Assembly: GCF_027627475.1 (NCBI RefSeq)
Contig: NZ_CP115484.1
Span: 5,531,001 to 5,595,000 of the forward strand
DNA length: 64,000 nt
Source of the DNA: Paenibacillus sp. SYP-B4298
GTDB taxonomy: Bacteria > Bacillota > Bacilli > Paenibacillales > Paenibacillaceae
Direction of reading: 5' to 3'
Below the pieces are notes generated by a model. The model was not told the DNA's origin. It saw nothing but the letters and a program-made list of their open reading frames with translations, and searched no databases. Both the position numbers and the translations under genes were made by a program. Numbering within the stretch: position 1 is the first letter of the stretch; every line of letters begins with the position of its first letter. Positions 28,533 to 36,351 of the stretch are shown here, piece after piece.

Positions 28533-28566
28533 AGCTCCGAGGGCGATATGCTCTCGGAGCTTTGTT
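28533..28566 (+). terminator. Terminator of the glucosaminidase gene
   Basis: AGCTCCGAG pairs with CTCGGAGCT followed by TTTGTTGTG. It isolates the wall hydrolase from the biosynthetic cluster that starts at 28704. Confidence 0.8.
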
Positions 28567-28703
28567 GTGTACACCGATGCTGGCTCCTGCCATCGATTGG
28601 CTGAGAAGACGGATAGGCAGGTGGGTGAATATGCAGTAAAATATAGGGACTATGAACATCAATACGATACACGCTCGGCTGTGATCGTTGGGAGAGGGCA
28701 TGG

Positions 28704-29705
28704 ATGCAGCTTAGAAAAGTGAAAATTATCGGCACGGGAAAATATTTGCCGGGGCGTATGGTAACCGATGAGGAATTGGATCACAAGCTGAATGCTGCTG
28801 CGGGCTGGGTTGGCAGCATGACTGGCGTCGGGACAAGACATTATGCGGAGGATGGCGAGACGGCCTCTGCGATGGGAGCCCAAGCGGCAACCGCTGCACT
28901 GGAGGCGGCCGGTCTGGAGTTCGCGGACATCGACTGTCTCGTATGTGCGAGCGGCACGAAGGAGCAGCCGCTGCCCTGCACCGCCGCACTCATCCAGCAG
29001 GCGCTGGGCCAGGAGCATTCCGGCGTCCCTTGCCTGGACATCGACTCGACCTGTCTGAGCTTCATGGTCGGCATGGATGTGATGTCCTATATGATCGCGG
29101 CTGGACGTTACCGGCATGTGCTGATCGTCTCCTCCGAGATCGCTTCACGCGGACTCAACTGGGAGCACAAGGAGAGCGCGGCGCTGTTCGGCGATGGGGC
29201 TGCTGCAGTAGTGCTAGGCAGCGCTGCGGCATCGGAGCGCTCGGCCATTCTGCATACAGAGCTCAATACGTATAGCAGTGGGGCGCGGCTGTCTGAGATT
29301 CGCGGCGGTGGCTCTGCGCTACATGCCAAGCATCACACGGTTCTGACGGCTCCCGACTACCTGTTCCAGATGGACGGGCAGGGAATCTTCCGTATGGCGT
29401 CGCGGCTGCTGCCGCCCTTCGTGGACAAGCTGCTGGAGCGCTCGGGTACTGCGATGGAGGACTTCCAACTGGTCATCCCGCATCAGGGCAGTGCGATGGC
29501 GATGCGTCTGCTGCGCAAGAAGCTGGGCATCGGCGAGACGCAGATGATGGACATTACCCGCCATCATGGCAATACGATCTCCGCCTCCATCCCCATGGGA
29601 TTGCATGAGGCGATCATCCAGGGAAGGATCAGCCGCGGTGACCGGCTGCTGCTGATCGGCACGGCTGCTGGTCTGACGCTGGGAGGGATGGTCATTGATT
29701 ACTAA
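28704..29705 (+). CDS. 3-oxoacyl-ACP synthase III-family enzyme (first gene of cluster)
   Basis: A 333-residue thiolase-fold condensing enzyme of the KAS III/OleA type. The Cys-His-Asn triad is visible: Cys117 in DIDSTCLSFM, His in VIPHQGSAM (near 252) and Asn in HHGNTISASIP (near 282). The usual HQAN of FabH is HQGS here, and the C-terminus GTAAGLTLGGMVIDY matches the family. It should load an acyl-CoA or acyl-ACP and join it to a second acyl unit. The setting argues against housekeeping FabH, since no other fatty-acid genes and no ACP are nearby. Six further enzymes follow with overlapping stops and starts. The substrate is unknown. Confidence 0.9.
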   Translation: MQLRKVKIIGTGKYLPGRMVTDEELDHKLNAAAGWVGSMTGVGTRHYAEDGETASAMGAQAATAALEAAGLEFADIDCLVCASGTKEQPLPCTAALIQQALGQEHSGVPCLDIDSTCLSFMVGMDVMSYMIAAGRYRHVLIVSSEIASRGLNWEHKESAALFGDGAAAVVLGSAAASERSAILHTELNTYSSGARLSEIRGGGSALHAKHHTVLTAPDYLFQMDGQGIFRMASRLLPPFVDKLLERSGTAMEDFQLVIPHQGSAMAMRLLRKKLGIGETQMMDITRHHGNTISASIPMGLHEAIIQGRISRGDRLLLIGTAAGLTLGGMVIDY

Positions 29706-30900
29706 GCCGCTGCGGGTGCTTCTGACCGGAGGACGCGCTCCGGTCACGCTGGAGCTGGCACGGATACTGCATGATGCAGGCTGCGAGGTCTATGTGGCCG
29801 AGAGCGCAGCCTATCATCTGTGCCGGGTGTCCTCCGCCGTCGCAGCCAGCTTCCGCGTGCCTCCGCCCCGCACCGAGCGGGAGGGCTACATTGCGGCACT
29901 GACAGCGCTGATCGAGCGCTGTCGCATTCATCTCCTCGTCCCAATGTGTGAGGAAATTTTCTATATCGCCGAGGGGATAGCACGGCTTCCGCAGCATTGC
30001 CGGGTGCTGGCGGACAGGACGGAGCTGCTGGCGAAGCTGCATCACAAGTACAGCTTCGCCTGCCTTGCGGAGCTTCACGGGTGCCGTGTGCCCAGCACTC
30101 GGCTTATCACCGGGGAGGCGCAGTGGCGGCATGCGGTGCGGGAAGCGCAGGATGGCGCGCTAGTGCTCAAGCCGGCCTACTCGCGGTTTGCAGCGCGGGT
30201 CATCATGCCACAGCAGCTCCGATGCTCTGCGGGGGGCAGACCCTGCCCTCCTGCTCCGCCCGGGCTGTCGCCCGCGCGCCCGTGGGTGGCGCAGCGCTAT
30301 GTGCCGGGGAGGGCGATCTGCACGTTCTCGCTAGCAAGCGAAGGGCAACTGCTCGCTCATGCGGCCTATGAGAGCAAGTATAGGACAGGTGCTGTGGGCG
30401 CCAGTGTGCACTTCATGCAGTTGAATCATCCGAAGGCGCTGGCATGGGTTCGCCGTTTTGTGGAGGCGACCGGGCTGAGCGGGCATGTGGGCTTTGATTT
30501 CATCGATGGCGAGGACGGTGTACTGTATGCCATCGAATGCAATCCCCGGGCTACGAGCGGTCTGCATCTGTTTCGGCCGCTAGCTGGGCAATATACGGCG
30601 GCGATCCTATCCGGGCAGCAGAGTAATGGGGGATTGCTGCAGCCTCCGCCGGGCAGCAAGGCGATGCTGACGCTGCCGATGGCTGCTTGCGGTCTCCGGC
30701 TCGCAGCACAGCCGCGGCAGTGGCGGGCTTGGCTTGACGCGTGGCGAGGCACGCCCGATGCCGTATATCGGCGTGGCGACTCGCGCCCGGCGTGGGAGCA
30801 ACTGCGCATCGTAGCGGATGCGTGGCGACGCAGCCGGAACAGCGGGCTGAGCATGACGGAAGTGTTAACGGACGACATAGAATGGAACGGTGAGCGATGA
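29695..30900 (+). CDS. ATP-grasp ligase
   Basis: A 401-residue ATP-grasp protein of the carbamoyl-phosphate-synthase/biotin-carboxylase-like branch. An N-terminal Rossmann-like domain (LRVLLTGGRAPVTLELARIL) is followed by the ATP-binding half (LHHKYSFACLAELHG, GALVLKPAYSRFAARV, WVAQRYVPG) and the metal/ATP block GHVGFDFIDG...YAIECNPRATSGLHLF (near 270-290). Such enzymes join a carboxylate to an amine, thiol or other nucleophile through an acyl phosphate. It starts with TTG inside the end of the KAS gene (11-base overlap), seven bases after GGGAGGG. A Pro/Ala/Gly-rich stretch at about 178-200 looks like an extended loop. Confidence 0.88.
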   Translation: MITKPLRVLLTGGRAPVTLELARILHDAGCEVYVAESAAYHLCRVSSAVAASFRVPPPRTEREGYIAALTALIERCRIHLLVPMCEEIFYIAEGIARLPQHCRVLADRTELLAKLHHKYSFACLAELHGCRVPSTRLITGEAQWRHAVREAQDGALVLKPAYSRFAARVIMPQQLRCSAGGRPCPPAPPGLSPARPWVAQRYVPGRAICTFSLASEGQLLAHAAYESKYRTGAVGASVHFMQLNHPKALAWVRRFVEATGLSGHVGFDFIDGEDGVLYAIECNPRATSGLHLFRPLAGQYTAAILSGQQSNGGLLQPPPGSKAMLTLPMAACGLRLAAQPRQWRAWLDAWRGTPDAVYRRGDSRPAWEQLRIVADAWRRSRNSGLSMTEVLTDDIEWNGER

Positions 30901-31889
30901 CAGAAGTATTGGTAACCGGAGCGACCGGATTCTTGGGCGGGTATGTCGCCCGCAGGCTGGCGAAGTTGGGTTGGCGCGTCACAGGGATGGGACGGAGCTT
31001 GTCCGCAGGCCGCGACCTGGCTGAAGCGGGCATTGCCTTCGTCCCTGGCGATCTGCGTGATGCTGATGCTGTACACGCGGCGTGTAAAGGGCAGCGCTAT
31101 GTCCTGCATTGCGGTGCACGATCCGCGCCATGGGGGGCGTATCGTGAATTTTACGGGTGCAATGTGGACGGGACACGCCATGTTGTAGATGGCTGCCACA
31201 GGCAGGGTGTCGAACGGATGGTGCATATCTCGACACCTAGCGTATATTTTGATTACCGTCCCCGCCTCGGCATTCGTGAATCGGACTCGCTGCCGCGCCG
31301 CCCTGTGAATCATTACGCGGCGACGAAGCTGCTGTCCGAGCAGTTGGCGCTGCAGGCACATGGCGAGAGACTGCAGACGGTTGTCCTCCGTCCGCGCGCG
31401 ATCTTCGGGCCGGGCGACCAGACCTTGTTCCCGCGGCTGCTGAAGGTGAATAACGGCAGAGGCATTCCGCTGCTCAACAAGGGAGAGGCGTGGATTGACC
31501 CGACCTATGTCGGCAATGTGGCGGATGTGATGCTGCTCTGCTGCGATGCTCCGGCTGCAGCGATGGGGCAGGTCTATCACATCTCGGGCGGGCAGCCGAT
31601 GCTGTTCCGTGAGCTGCTGTCCGCATTGTTTGAACGGCTGGACATCCCGCTTCGCACTCGCTCCGTATCGTGGGAGGCTGTATATGCGGCAGCAGGGCTT
31701 CTGGAGCTGGCGCATCGGCTGATCCCGATGCTGGGCGAGCCGCTGTTAACCCGCTTCACAGCCGGTTCGGTCGCCGTCTCGCAGACGCTGGATAGCTCGC
31801 GGGCCCGCGAGCAGCTCGGCTATGAGCCCCAGGTGTCGACATTGGAAGGGCTGGAGCGCTTCGCCAGATGGTGGAGGGAGCAACGATGA
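30897..31889 (+). CDS. NAD(P)-dependent epimerase/3beta-HSD-like reductase (OleD-like)
   Basis: A 330-residue extended SDR. The nucleotide motif GATGFLGGYVARRL is at residues 7-20. The catalytic Ser/Thr lies in HISTPSVYFDYR and the YxxxK in NHYAATKLLSEQ. The C-terminal part resembles 3beta-hydroxysteroid dehydrogenase/isomerase proteins, the group that includes OleD, which reduces 2-alkyl-3-keto acids. In this cluster it is the natural candidate to reduce the 3-keto group made by the KAS III enzyme. It overlaps the preceding gene by four bases (ATGA). Confidence 0.9.
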   Translation: MTEVLVTGATGFLGGYVARRLAKLGWRVTGMGRSLSAGRDLAEAGIAFVPGDLRDADAVHAACKGQRYVLHCGARSAPWGAYREFYGCNVDGTRHVVDGCHRQGVERMVHISTPSVYFDYRPRLGIRESDSLPRRPVNHYAATKLLSEQLALQAHGERLQTVVLRPRAIFGPGDQTLFPRLLKVNNGRGIPLLNKGEAWIDPTYVGNVADVMLLCCDAPAAAMGQVYHISGGQPMLFRELLSALFERLDIPLRTRSVSWEAVYAAAGLLELAHRLIPMLGEPLLTRFTAGSVAVSQTLDSSRAREQLGYEPQVSTLEGLERFARWWREQR

Positions 31890-32740
31890 TCACCCGTCTT
31901 CCTGTCAAGCTGACGCTGCGGTCAGCCGGCTCCTGCCTCCATCCCGAGGCGCTAACCTTGCGCGGCGGTACACTGCGCCCTGTAGAGTTCCCGGCAGGCT
32001 ATGCCTGTATCGAGCATCCACTGCATGGGATGATTCTATTCGACACGGGCTATAGCTCTCGCTTCTTCGCAGAGACGGCGCGGCTGCCAGCTTCGCTATA
32101 TCGTCATATTACGCCTGTCCGCTATGAGGATCGGCAAGGCGCAGCCAGCCAGCTCCTCGCTGCTGGCATCGAGCCGGAGCAAGTGCAGTATGTGGTGCTC
32201 TCACATTTCCATGCCGACCACATCGGCGGCGTCCGCGACTTCCCGCAGGCGCAATTCATCTATGCTTCCGCCGCTTATGAGGCAGTGCGCCAGCTTCGCG
32301 GGCTGCGCGCTGTACGTGCGGGATTTCTGCCTGGTCTGCTGCCGGATGATTTTGCTCGCCGCTCTCTTCCCTTCAGTGATGGAGAGGCTGTCGAATGCTT
32401 TGATGCAGACTTTCCCCTGCAGCGGGGCTGGGACTTGCTAGGAGATGGAAGCCTGCTTGCTGTCATGCTGCCTGGACATGCGGCGGGCATGATCGGGCTA
32501 TTCGTCTCCGATACGCAGCACGATTATCTGCTGTGTGCGGATGCGGTGTGGTCCAGCCGCGCTTACCGGGAGCAGCGTCTGCCGCATCCGCTCGCAGGCC
32601 TGATCATGTCCAGTCGCAGGGACTATCAGCGCAGCTTCGCGCTGCTGACGGAGCTGCATCAGCGTTATCCACGGCTGCGCATTGTGCCTAGCCATTGCCG
32701 CGAGGCACTGGCGGCCTGGGGATCGGAGCAGAGCGAATGA
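31886..32740 (+). CDS. Metallo-beta-lactamase-fold hydrolase
   Basis: A 284-residue MBL-fold enzyme. The metal motif SHFHADHIGG (near 106-115) is intact, with further His and Asp ligands in LPGHAAGMIGL, CADAVW and PSHCREAL. The overall layout resembles the lactonase/AttM-type branch (DTGYSSRFF after the first strand). Within the cluster it could hydrolyse a thioester or lactone intermediate, taking the place of OleB or a thioesterase; this is inference. The ATG at 31886 follows GGAGGGAG and overlaps the previous stop (ATGA). A longer frame from 31868 is unlikely. Confidence 0.9.
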   Translation: MITRLPVKLTLRSAGSCLHPEALTLRGGTLRPVEFPAGYACIEHPLHGMILFDTGYSSRFFAETARLPASLYRHITPVRYEDRQGAASQLLAAGIEPEQVQYVVLSHFHADHIGGVRDFPQAQFIYASAAYEAVRQLRGLRAVRAGFLPGLLPDDFARRSLPFSDGEAVECFDADFPLQRGWDLLGDGSLLAVMLPGHAAGMIGLFVSDTQHDYLLCADAVWSSRAYREQRLPHPLAGLIMSSRRDYQRSFALLTELHQRYPRLRIVPSHCREALAAWGSEQSE

Positions 32741-34062
32741 GCGGAATCAGCAAGGCAACGATATTAAGCTATTATGTGCGCACGCTGCTGCGCCGCCGCT
32801 GGAGCAGCCGCAGCGCGCTAGAGCAATGGCAGGAGCGGCGCATCCTCCGCCATGTCGCCAGGGTGCGGGAGGCCTCCCCCTTCTACCGTGACTGGTGGAA
32901 GGGCATAAGGGACGAGGACTGGCGCAGCTTCCCTGTCATCGACAAGGCGATCATGATGGAGAACTTTGATCGGCTGAACACGGTGGGCATCCAGCGGGAT
33001 GAGGCGATGGAGCTGGCGCTGCGAGCGGAGCACACCCGCGACTTCCAGCCAACGCTAAGGGGCATGACCATCGGCCTGTCCTCGGGCACCTCGGGAAGCC
33101 GCGGTCTGTTTCTGGTGAGCCCACAGGAGCAGGCGGCCTGGACAGGCACGGTGCTCGCCAAGCTGCTGCCGCGCGGGGTCTGGCGTCAGGAGCGGCTTGC
33201 CTTCTTCCTGCGGGCGAACAGCAATCTTTACGAATCGGTTCGCAGCGGACGGCTGCAATTTGAATATTTTGATCTACTGGAGCCGCTTGAGCTTCATATC
33301 GAGCGGCTTCAGTCTTATCAAGCCGGGGTGTGGATTGCGCCGCCATCGATGCTGCGGCTGCTGGCGGATGCCAGGCGGCAGGGGCGGCTTACTGCCCGGC
33401 CACACCGACTGATCGGGGTGGCCGAGGTGCTGGACCCGCTCGACCGCGAGGTTATCGAGCAGGCATTTGCCCAGCCGGTGCATCAGGCTTACCAGTGTAC
33501 AGAGGGCTTTCTGGGGGCGACCTGCAGCCATGGACGGCTGCATCTCAATGAGGATGTCGTCCATATCGAGAGGGAATATGTCGACCGTCAGCAGCGGAGG
33601 TTTGTGCCGATCGTGACCGATTTCTCGCGCTTCGCCCAGCCGATCATTCGCTATCGTCTGAACGATCTGCTCATCGAGGCGGAGCGGGCCTGCCCGTGCG
33701 GCTCACCTTATGTCGCTATTGAACAGATTGAGGGGCGCTGTGACGATCTGCTCTATTTCCCTGCGGAGAACGGCACGATGCTGCGTCCTGTATTTCCAGA
33801 TTTCATCACGCGTGCGGTAATTGGCGCTTCTCCTGCGATCGAGCATTACCATGTCATCCAGCATCATCCGAAGAGTCTGGAGCTTCGGCTGCAGGTGCAT
33901 CCCGAGAGCGCCGAGGAAGAGGTGCGAGCGCAGGTTGGCGTAGCGTTATCGAGGCTGCTCGCGAGAATGGGCTGCTGCCTGCCGGTTATTCACTACTCGC
34001 CATACATGCCGATGGCCAGAGGAACCAAGCTGCGCCGGGTGGAGAGGAGATTTCCGCTGTGA
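32737..34062 (+). CDS. CapK/F390-synthetase-like adenylate-forming enzyme
   Basis: A 441-residue member of the AMP-forming acyl-adenylate superfamily, in the branch annotated as F390 synthetase-related. The N-terminus (LRRRWSSRSALEQWQERRILRHV, core RSALEQWQERRIL) precedes the P-loop-like GLSSGTSGSRGLF near residue 115. Then come AYQCTEGFLGATC, RYRLNDLL and CPCGSPYVAIEQIEGRCDDLL (core IEQIEGRCDDLL), the hinge-type motif. It should activate a carboxylate as an acyl-AMP. It starts at an ATG overlapping the MBL stop (ATGA). Confidence 0.88.
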   Translation: MSGISKATILSYYVRTLLRRRWSSRSALEQWQERRILRHVARVREASPFYRDWWKGIRDEDWRSFPVIDKAIMMENFDRLNTVGIQRDEAMELALRAEHTRDFQPTLRGMTIGLSSGTSGSRGLFLVSPQEQAAWTGTVLAKLLPRGVWRQERLAFFLRANSNLYESVRSGRLQFEYFDLLEPLELHIERLQSYQAGVWIAPPSMLRLLADARRQGRLTARPHRLIGVAEVLDPLDREVIEQAFAQPVHQAYQCTEGFLGATCSHGRLHLNEDVVHIEREYVDRQQRRFVPIVTDFSRFAQPIIRYRLNDLLIEAERACPCGSPYVAIEQIEGRCDDLLYFPAENGTMLRPVFPDFITRAVIGASPAIEHYHVIQHHPKSLELRLQVHPESAEEEVRAQVGVALSRLLARMGCCLPVIHYSPYMPMARGTKLRRVERRFPL

Positions 34063-35411
34063 CGGTTCAATGCACACTATATGACGAGCATACGATTGCG
34101 GATATGGTATGGCCGCAGACTGCATATGGAGCCTATGCCCGGGCCTATCTACTGCCGCTGATTAGAGAAGCTTCGGCTTGCTATATTCATAATGTCGATA
34201 CGCAACTGCTGATCCTGTCGGTAGACGGCATTCCGCTGCCTGTAACGGTCAATGACGGGCAATATGACAACTCATACGTCTGTTCACCGTATACTCATTA
34301 TGTAAGCTATGCCCAGGAGGAATTGGCGTTGCTCGGCAGCAAGACAGCAGAGCGGGTGCTGTCCCGCCTACTGGATGGGGTAGGTGCGCTGATGCGGCGC
34401 GCGGGCTTCAATCGGGTCGTGCAGTTGAATAACTGGCTAGTATCGACCAACTTGTACCCGGCACTGTCGGCGGAGCAGTGGATTGCCGCCGTCGATTGTC
34501 TGCGCGCCGCCTATCCGCGCCACACGCTGCTCATCCGTTCCTTGAATGAGCAGACGACTGGAGCCGAGCTGGCTGCGCTCAAGCAATACGGCTGTCGGCT
34601 GGTGCCGAGCCGGCAGATTTACCTGCTCCGCCCGGAGGCTCCCCGAGGTACAGCTACCGGGGCTCGTGGCACTGCAGGTAAAGGGGATGAGGCGCTCACA
34701 GGAGAGAGAGCTGCCACAGGCAATGTATCAGGCTCCCCGATGCTGTCCGTTGATAGACGGCCTGCCGCAGGGCCAGCAGAACAGCAGTCCAAGGCAATTC
34801 ATGCATCAGGCAAGCTCCAGCCCGGGGAGGTGACCCGCATACCGCTGCCAGATGCGAAGGCGCGGTGGCTGGTGAAGCGGGACACAGGCCTGATCGCCAG
34901 GCATGGCTATGAGATCGTCGGTCCGCAAGACATTGCAGAGCAGGATATACCGCGGATTGTGCAGTTGTACGACATGCTGTACATTGCGAAGTATTCGATG
35001 CATAATCCTCAGTTTACCGCTTCGTTCATCCGGCTGGCGCGGGAGCAGGGCATCCTCCAGCTCTACGGGCTGCGCAAGATGGGCAGACTCGATGCGGTGC
35101 TCGGATTCTTCAGCCGCGAGGGGGTCATGACGACGCCGCTGTTCGGCTACGATACAGGCGTGCCCCAGCAGATCGGACTGTACCGCATGCTGTCTGCTGT
35201 GCTGATTCGTCTGGCAGGCGAACGTGGGGAGCTGCTGCATGAGAGCTCGGGAGTGGGACAGTTCAAGCGCAACCGTGGAGCTGTCCCTGTATTGGAGGTT
35301 AGCGCAGTCTACGACCGACATATGCCGCTGGGCGTGCGGGCCAGTTGGTCGGTGCTGGAGCAACTGTTGAACCATGTCGGCGTGCCGCTTATTCGCAAGC
35401 TGAAGCTTTAA
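34059..35411 (+). CDS. GNAT/FemAB-like acyltransferase candidate
   Basis: A 450-residue protein with two folded halves joined by a low-complexity Gly/Ala/Thr-rich stretch (about 197-262). The N-terminal half (MVWPQTAYGAYARAYLLPLI, YDNSYVCSPYTHYVSYAQEE) is unlike anything I can name. The C-terminal half has a GNAT-like run (LYDMLYIAKYSMHNPQFTASF, ILQLYGLRKMGRLDAVLGFF, QIGLYRMLSAVLIRLAGE, FKRNRGAVPVLEVSAVYD), the order expected for FemAB/GNAT acyltransferases. It may transfer the activated acyl or aminoacyl group. The start is GTG, overlapping the previous stop (GTGA). The fold call is moderate. Confidence 0.7.
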   Translation: MTVQCTLYDEHTIADMVWPQTAYGAYARAYLLPLIREASACYIHNVDTQLLILSVDGIPLPVTVNDGQYDNSYVCSPYTHYVSYAQEELALLGSKTAERVLSRLLDGVGALMRRAGFNRVVQLNNWLVSTNLYPALSAEQWIAAVDCLRAAYPRHTLLIRSLNEQTTGAELAALKQYGCRLVPSRQIYLLRPEAPRGTATGARGTAGKGDEALTGERAATGNVSGSPMLSVDRRPAAGPAEQQSKAIHASGKLQPGEVTRIPLPDAKARWLVKRDTGLIARHGYEIVGPQDIAEQDIPRIVQLYDMLYIAKYSMHNPQFTASFIRLAREQGILQLYGLRKMGRLDAVLGFFSREGVMTTPLFGYDTGVPQQIGLYRMLSAVLIRLAGERGELLHESSGVGQFKRNRGAVPVLEVSAVYDRHMPLGVRASWSVLEQLLNHVGVPLIRKLKL

Positions 35412-35457
35412 GCTCTAGGCTGTGATTGTTAATCGATGATAAGAGAAGGGGGAGAGC

Positions 35458-36351
35458 ATGATGGGTGAAGCGGGACGCGTAAGCGATAAGGTAGCCGACA
35501 AGGTAGCGCTCATAACCGGAACCTCCAGCGGCTTCGGCCTGCTGTCCGCTCTGGAGCTGGCGAGTCGTGGCTACATGGTTATTGCCACGATGCGTGATGT
35601 CGCTCATGGAGGGGAACTGCTGCGAAGGGCGCGAGAGTCGCAGGTAGAGCGGCGGCTGCGGTGTATCGCGCTGGATGTGACGAATGAATCCCAGATTAGC
35701 GAGACTATTGGAGCGGTGCTGGCGGAGTATGGCCGCATCGATGTATTGGTCAATAATGCCGGCTATGCCGTCGGAGGCTTCGTCGAGGAGGTGCCGCTTG
35801 CCGAGTGGCGGCGGCAACTGGAGACGAACTTTTTCGGCCTCGTTGCGGTGACACAAGCGGCGCTGCCTGCTATGCGCGCGCGCCGCTCCGGGCTCATTAT
35901 TAATGTGAGCAGTATAAGCGGCAGATCGGGCTTCCCCGGATATGGGCCCTATGCCGCCTCGAAGTTCGCTGTCGAGGGCTTCAGCGAGAGCCTACGTCAT
36001 GAGATGTCAAGCTGGGGCGTGAAGGTGGTGCTGGTCGAGCCGGGCTCCTTCAAGACACCGATCTGGAACAAAGGGCTGCAGAATATGCATACTCGTCCCG
36101 GTTCGCCCTACAAGGAGCAATTGGATGCTGTCCTCACCTACTCTCGCCGCTCCGCTGACACAGCGCCTGATCCCATCGGAGTGGCAAGGCTGATCGGCCG
36201 CATTACCGCGATGCGCTCGCCCCGATTACGCTATGCGATCGGCCAGGGGTCGCGGCTGCTGCTATGGGGCAAGGCGCTGCTCCCGTGGAAATGGATGGAG
36301 TGGGCGATTGCTGCGGGCCTGAAGCAATCCCCTGGCAGCAGGAGGGGGTAG
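35458..36351 (+). CDS. Short-chain dehydrogenase/reductase (last gene of cluster)
   Basis: A 297-residue classical SDR. The cofactor motif TGTSSGFG (about 23-30) is followed by LDVTN, NNAGYAVGG (near 99) and the catalytic Ser in INVSSISG. YAASK with GPYAASKFAVEGF (near 164) and the PGSFKTPIW block complete the pattern. It acts as an NAD(P)-dependent oxidoreductase on an alcohol or ketone. The 46-base gap from the GNAT-like gene and the GAAGGGGGAGAGC ribosome site suit the same operon. The C-terminus ends in a tandem repeat that runs past the stop codon. Confidence 0.9.
   Translation: MMGEAGRVSDKVADKVALITGTSSGFGLLSALELASRGYMVIATMRDVAHGGELLRRARESQVERRLRCIALDVTNESQISETIGAVLAEYGRIDVLVNNAGYAVGGFVEEVPLAEWRRQLETNFFGLVAVTQAALPAMRARRSGLIINVSSISGRSGFPGYGPYAASKFAVEGFSESLRHEMSSWGVKVVLVEPGSFKTPIWNKGLQNMHTRPGSPYKEQLDAVLTYSRRSADTAPDPIGVARLIGRITAMRSPRLRYAIGQGSRLLLWGKALLPWKWMEWAIAAGLKQSPGSRRG

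Follow-up and report, generated by a model that had tools for sequence, protein, structure and literature searches.

A conserved KAS III operon in Paenibacillus and its four-gene core in other bacteria

The operon and its conservation

The window analysed here is a 64,000-nucleotide stretch of Paenibacillus sp. SYP-B4298 (NZ_CP115484.1, positions 5,531,001-5,595,000, forward strand), and coordinates without a locus prefix are positions within it. Our subject is a group of seven genes, all on the plus strand between 28704 and 36351, that opens with a condensing enzyme of the KAS III type and probably serves to join two acyl chains and decorate the product into a lipid. The genes are listed with the evidence for each assignment, followed by two candidate signals upstream of gene 1.

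28704..29705, plus strand: gene 1, KAS III, CorB/MxnB-like (family scans, PDB profile, residues, trees)
29695..30900, plus strand: gene 2, ATP-grasp ligase with a predicted PurK/GARS/PylC-like fold, TTG start (NF005315 score, predicted structure)
30897..31889, plus strand: gene 3, extended short-chain dehydrogenase/reductase (SDR), nearest to OleD, a 2-alkyl-3-oxoalkanoate reductase (NF042422 score, YxxxK)
31886..32740, plus strand: gene 4, metallo-beta-lactamase-fold (MBL) hydrolase, relative of N-acyl-homoserine lactonases (family scans, HxHxDH)
32737..34062, plus strand: gene 5, F390-synthetase-related (PaaK/CapK-like) adenylating enzyme, TIGR02304 (family scan, PDB matches)
34059..35411, plus strand: gene 6, double-GNAT transferase with a predicted FemX/MprF/Sba18-like fold (predicted structure, co-occurrence)
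35458..36351, plus strand: gene 7, classical SDR, NF005372 (375 bits over 320)
28533..28561, plus strand: terminator-like hairpin that would close the upstream gene (13-pair stem, 8 G-C pairs)
28614..28642, plus strand: candidate operon promoter TAGGCA-17-TAAAAT (consensus match only, 9/12)

Together these genes make up a genuine operon. As the original prediction described, they lie on one strand and six of them are joined by overlaps of 4 to 11 bases: the open reading frame list and the junctions give 11 bases between genes 1 and 2 and 4 bases at each of the four following junctions up to genes 5 and 6, with the ATG codons of genes 4 and 5 read from the sequence at 31886 and 32737, respectively. 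Genes 6 and 7 are separated by 46 bases. Promoter-like and hairpin-like matches of the kind found before gene 1 are not rare by chance. In a few other loci (L083 and L088), comparison by eye picked out GTACTA...TAGTAC, an inverted repeat ahead of the KAS III gene and a possible operator.

A single KAS III scan over GTDB contigs yielded 64 related loci in Paenibacillaceae, and the order KAS III, ATP-grasp, OleD-like, MBL and F390-like is kept in 62 of them, which rules out chance and bears out the suggestion that the families of the cluster would co-occur across genomes. The SDR of gene 7 is present in 53 of the 64, and gene 6 is in place at the cluster in about half. Since the genes flanking the cluster vary between groups, the cluster itself is the unit. 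Its first five or six genes are also kept in other families of Bacilli, at approximately 30-57% identity. Neither a carrier protein nor an exporter is present in the cluster of the window, as had been noted from its sequence, and among the genes conserved beside the Bacillota loci no regulator, exporter or carrier protein was conspicuous.

Departures from the full set are also found. The L079 locus is cut down to MerR-KAS III-OleD-MBL-MFS, and two genomes of the window's family hold KAS III-OleD-MBL-F390 without the ATP-grasp gene and gene 6 at the cluster; one of these (L168) has the core genes only, and in the other (L162:5870-8855) the core is followed by a family-21 glycosyltransferase gene (ceramide-glucosyltransferase type, Glyco_transf_21) and a second glycosyltransferase gene. 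All seven genes are found on a 227-kb plasmid of Paenibacillus urinalis (L177:5858-13451, NZ_CP118102.1).

The seven enzymes

Gene 1 passes the cut-off of the KAS III model NF005541 (PRK07204; 443 bits, cut-off 402) and that of the FabH subfamily model NF006829 (262 bits, cut-off 249), lies below the cut-off of the FabH model TIGR00747, and scores 121 bits against a cut-off of 285 with NF006720, which we take to be the model covering OleA. A search with NF006720 gave no match in 249 genomes nor in any control and so says nothing on absence. The catalytic triad of gene 1 (C117, H260 and N290) is intact, and the position of the catalytic Glu of OleA is occupied by Leu90, with Leu or Ile in all 35 cluster rows. 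That Glu is needed by OleA and PpyS, and Val94 stands there in MxnB and CorB (PMC4578411); MxnB, an enzyme with two tunnels for its substrates, condenses a pair of long chains (PMC5724707).

When solved structures in the PDB were ranked with a profile (A5) of nine cluster KAS III sequences, MxnB and CorB took the first two ranks (310 and 300 bits), ahead of the best FabH (248 bits), with PqsD and PqsC far below these and OleA (80-89 bits) the furthest removed KAS III group in the comparison. In most of the diagnostic columns (S263, T320, I292, A167, Y190 and S119) CorB and MxnB match the residue of the cluster and not that of FabH. The FabH-invariant Asn263, Arg265 and Phe320 are replaced in the cluster by Ser, Met and Thr, as in or close to MxnB and CorB, and a GGG loop is common to the cluster enzymes and CorB/MxnB and is missing from the FabH row. 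In a first tree the cluster KAS III stood apart from FabH, and in a second, which included the proteobacterial core discussed below, all core KAS III and CorB/MxnB were separated from 17 FabH rows at 100/100. Both trees were built without OleA and without the FabH paralogue from the own genome of L001, and the long-branch paralogue of L002 was dropped from the second. The expected separation of the KAS III from housekeeping FabH was thus recovered from the trees and the changed invariant residues, and identity of gene 1 with housekeeping FabH was rejected on both counts. Membership in OleA was likewise discarded, in view of the residue at the Glu position, the NF006720 score and the order of the PDB matches.

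Two SDRs, a hydrolase and an adenylating enzyme were also assigned. The best of 23 families for gene 3 is the OleD model NF042422, in agreement with the OleD-like reductase originally proposed, at 253 bits, which is under the cut-off of 580; its Pfam Epimerase domain is over cut-off and the YxxxK motif is kept in 76 of 76 sequences. Gene 4 has a Pfam MBL domain over cut-off, with HxHxDH kept in 77 of 77 sequences, and scores 93 bits with the model of the N-acyl-homoserine lactonase AttM, below the cut-off of 390. Gene 5 scores 512 bits with TIGR02304 (cut-off 252), and its best PDB sequence matches are AjiA1 and PaaK; no AMP-binding Pfam match was obtained, and it is not of the OleC type. The kinship to OleC read into this gene in the original prediction gives way to one with PaaK and F390 synthetase. 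Gene 7 exceeds the cut-off of the SDR model NF005372, as listed.

Genes 2 and 6 appear to form a pair. Gene 2 scores 349 bits with NF005315 (cut-off 406); both this score and that of gene 3 lie under curated cut-offs, so the two count as relatives. The predicted structure of gene 2 (predicted local distance difference test score, pLDDT, 92.5; Z 25.9 to 2pn1 and 24.7 to PylC) indicates an ATP-grasp ligase of the PurK/GARS/PylC type. No family match was found for gene 6 in Pfam, NCBIfam or PDB sequences. Its predicted structure (pLDDT 84.9) is a double GNAT fold, in which residues ~198-256 form a disordered insert that few members have (alignment A3), and the nearest solved folds are Sba18/Sbb17 (Z 17.9), FemX (17.0) and MprF (15.8), followed by other double-GNAT enzymes at Z 12-14. 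Sba18 and Sbb17 are aminoacyl-tRNA-dependent peptide synthases. The earlier suggestion that the ATP-grasp ligase and the acyltransferase add an amino acid or amine thus agrees in outline with the PurK/PylC-like and FemX/MprF-like folds predicted for them.

Gene 6 is tied to the pathway because it co-occurs with the cluster. Among 150 genomes of the window's family, it was found in 43 of the 52 carriers (genomes with a TIGR02304 gene) and in none of the 98 non-carriers, even when unlinked from the cluster. In a clade around P. pabuli, where it is separated from the cluster by megabases or sits on a different contig, nearly all carriers still have it, and it is absent from the five genomes checked that have no ATP-grasp gene. 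The unlinked cases, about 12, all belong to a single clade and cannot be counted as independent events. The ATP-grasp gene and gene 6 also occur as a stand-alone unit; a Rieske oxygenase gene accompanies them at four loci (L134:9528-12882, L139:5876-9215, L140:14429-16638 and L145:6792-10143), twice behind the cluster. A diverged pair of ATP-grasp and double-GNAT genes was seen with no KAS III core at L141:8989-11246 and L142:7859-10092, near genes resembling hemQ, pta and a lipoyl-ligase-type gene.

The core outside the Bacillota

Four of the genes, encoding the KAS III, the OleD-like reductase, the MBL enzyme and the TIGR02304 adenylating enzyme, constitute a core that recurs with its gene order kept in Proteobacteria and Fusobacterium, apart from the exception given below, as found in plasmid and E. 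coli records. It stands with TetR and sulfotransferase genes in Paracoccus and Ketogulonicigenium, with GNAT, Rieske and ATP-grasp genes in Rhizobium, Shinella and Roseateles, and with ATP-grasp and GNAT genes in Paraburkholderia. In Burkholderia the core is present, but its MBL gene was not picked up by the open reading frame script, and in Fusobacterium the KAS III gene is placed last.

Of 5,426 complete E. coli genomes, 671 (~12%) carry the core between narI and tRNA-Tyr, nearly always on the chromosome; genes for a PAP2 phosphatase, a fatty-acid hydroxylase and a fatty-acid desaturase follow it (L182:6128-13009 and L191:4001-10882). The core proteins of E. coli and of the window are 35-44% identical, and the ST131 strain EC958 carries the operon as EC958_RS07115-RS07145. 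In strain KE48 it was seen on a 386-kb record labelled as a plasmid, which also holds the chromosomal neighbours. No described function for the E. coli operon was found in the open literature, which was searched without E. coli terms. That the core extends far beyond the genus, E. coli included, was not visible to the original prediction, which was made from the sequence alone.

On Pseudomonas megaplasmids (L183:7396-10984 and L187:6567-8691) F390-like genes, not always accompanied by an MBL gene, lie near distant ATP-grasp relatives, and there is no complete core. Among the mutants listed by a virulence screen of Pseudomonas syringae pv. actinidiae is one with a transposon in IYO_RS29540, a 'coenzyme F390 synthetase' gene (PMC9823363).

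A proposed pathway and its relation to known systems

We judge it an even call that the cluster encodes a modular pathway, which condenses, reduces, hydrolyses and activates, with exchangeable modules and an undescribed lipid or lipid-like metabolite as its product. The KAS III would join two acyl thioesters from fatty-acid metabolism in the manner of MxnB and CorB; because it has no Glu base of the OleA kind, an acidic beta-ketoacyl or malonyl partner is proposed as the nucleophile. The OleD-like enzyme would then turn the 3-keto group into a 3-hydroxyl, the MBL enzyme would hydrolyse the thioester or a lactone, and the F390/PaaK-like enzyme could make an acyl-adenylate from the resulting acid. 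In the window, the ATP-grasp ligase and the FemX/MprF-fold transferase may add an amine or amino acid, with a further reduction by the extra SDR; elsewhere the modules would be a Rieske oxygenase, a family-21 glycosyltransferase, or PAP2 together with the fatty-acid hydroxylase and desaturase. A lipid product is favoured because of the PAP2, fatty-acid hydroxylase, desaturase and Glyco_transf_21 neighbours.

A bolder form of this proposal is tentative, and we hold it to be less likely than not. In it, a horizontally mobile four-enzyme core of Bacillota, Proteobacteria and Fusobacteriota makes an undescribed class of lipids, and exchangeable modules determine the head group; one such module would be a transferase that depends on aminoacyl-tRNA and aminoacylates a hydroxy lipid made by chain joining. 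A sphingolipid-like route was also weighed, given the GNAT, family-21 glycosyltransferase, PAP2, hydroxylase and desaturase genes, and was dropped because the clusters read showed no gene of the serine-palmitoyltransferase type.

Several points weigh against the lipid pathway proposed here. In the second tree CorB/MxnB, the proteobacterial core, the Bacillota core and FabH branch from a four-way polytomy, so the kinship with CorB rests on profile scores and shared residues, and decarboxylating FabH has the same C-H-N triad. The double-GNAT fold is likewise found in acyl-CoA users such as N-myristoyltransferase. None of the lipid-related neighbours lies in the window itself; they come from E. 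coli and a single Bacillota genome. Finally, gene order, conservation, family assignments, predicted folds, catalytic motifs and co-occurrence are observed, and from them we infer every substrate, the order of reactions and the class of the product.

Other readings of the operon could account for part of these observations. A specialised decarboxylating FabH with an unusual primer could supply a 3-keto product for the OleD-like enzyme to reduce, after which the MBL enzyme would free a 3-hydroxy acid and the ligases would amidate it to a lipo-amino acid; malonyl thioesters of primary metabolism would suffice, the triad is intact and the NF006829 cut-off is passed, but with the three FabH-invariant residues replaced, a score below the TIGR00747 cut-off and a separate clade, we regard this as unlikely. 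The Ole-like beta-lactone pathway of the original prediction, with the KAS III as OleA, the F390-like enzyme as an OleC analogue closing a beta-lactone and the MBL enzyme in place of OleB to open or decarboxylate it, has the appeal that the four core genes map one to one onto the four Ole roles, that the best NCBIfam match of gene 3 is OleD and that the MBL enzyme is kin to lactonases. It is not supported by the condensing and adenylating enzymes: the OleA Glu is absent in all rows read, the NF006720 score is under cut-off, OleA ranks far behind CorB/MxnB and FabH, gene 5 matches PaaK-like enzymes and no AMP-binding Pfam model, and there is no OleB, all of which makes this pathway decidedly improbable.

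Yet more remote is an aromatic pathway resembling that of the Pseudomonas quinolone signal, in which the PaaK-like enzyme would activate an aromatic acid, the KAS III would extend it and the MBL enzyme would act as a PqsE-like thioesterase. The pqsA-E genes hold the same three enzyme types, and PaaK-like ligases often take aromatic acids; the low ranks of PqsD and PqsC relative to MxnB/CorB and FabH, and the fit of the PAP2, hydroxylase/desaturase and family-21 glycosyltransferase neighbours to a lipid, make such a route very improbable.

No description of the cluster was found in the open papers searched, a search that left subscription journals mostly outside and used no E. coli terms, and the expectation that it would match no named pathway held within these papers. 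The enzyme types are known; their combination, distribution and product are new as far as checked. A core for which no product has been described, and which soil bacilli and rhizobia have in common with Fusobacterium and a broadly distributed set of E. coli strains, would fill a gap in bacterial lipid chemistry. The orphan family TIGR02304, the KAS III family NF005541 (PRK07204) and the double-GNAT/ATP-grasp pair gain one shared context. The presence of the core in E. coli opens the question to standard genetics and lipid mass spectrometry.

Among known systems, the corallopyronin and myxopyronin ketosynthases CorB and MxnB resemble gene 1 as its best PDB matches, in the C-H-N triad, in having no OleA-type Glu, and in Ser263, Thr320, Ile292 and the GGG loop. 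The setting differs, as the cluster has no polyketide synthase or carrier protein, gene 1 is distant in sequence and is followed by a reductase, a hydrolase and an adenylating enzyme, and the product of the cluster is not known to be a pyrone. Housekeeping FabH shares the fold family and the triad with gene 1, which differs in its separate clade and in the changed invariant Asn, Arg and Phe positions. The Ole pathway (OleA-OleD-OleC-OleB) likewise combines in one operon a condensing KAS III, an OleD-like reductase, an ATP-using adenylating enzyme and a hydrolase; unlike it, the cluster has the PaaK/F390-like gene 5, an MBL enzyme for the alpha/beta-hydrolase OleB, and the added ATP-grasp and double-GNAT genes. 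No OleB-type alpha/beta-hydrolase is among the seven genes, and none stood out among the conserved neighbours, which are mostly unannotated. Gene 4 keeps HxHxDH and is related to the N-acyl-homoserine lactonases, yet remains under the cut-off of the AttM equivalog model. The FemX, MprF and Sba18 aminoacyl transferases have the double-GNAT fold of gene 6 (Z 15-18) at approximately 10-13% identity, gene 6 is without a membrane domain, and its use of aminoacyl-tRNA is putative. The E. coli narI/tRNA-Tyr operon matches the cluster of the window in its four core genes and their order, and differs in that a PAP2 phosphatase, a fatty-acid hydroxylase and a desaturase replace the ATP-grasp ligase, the double-GNAT transferase and the SDR.

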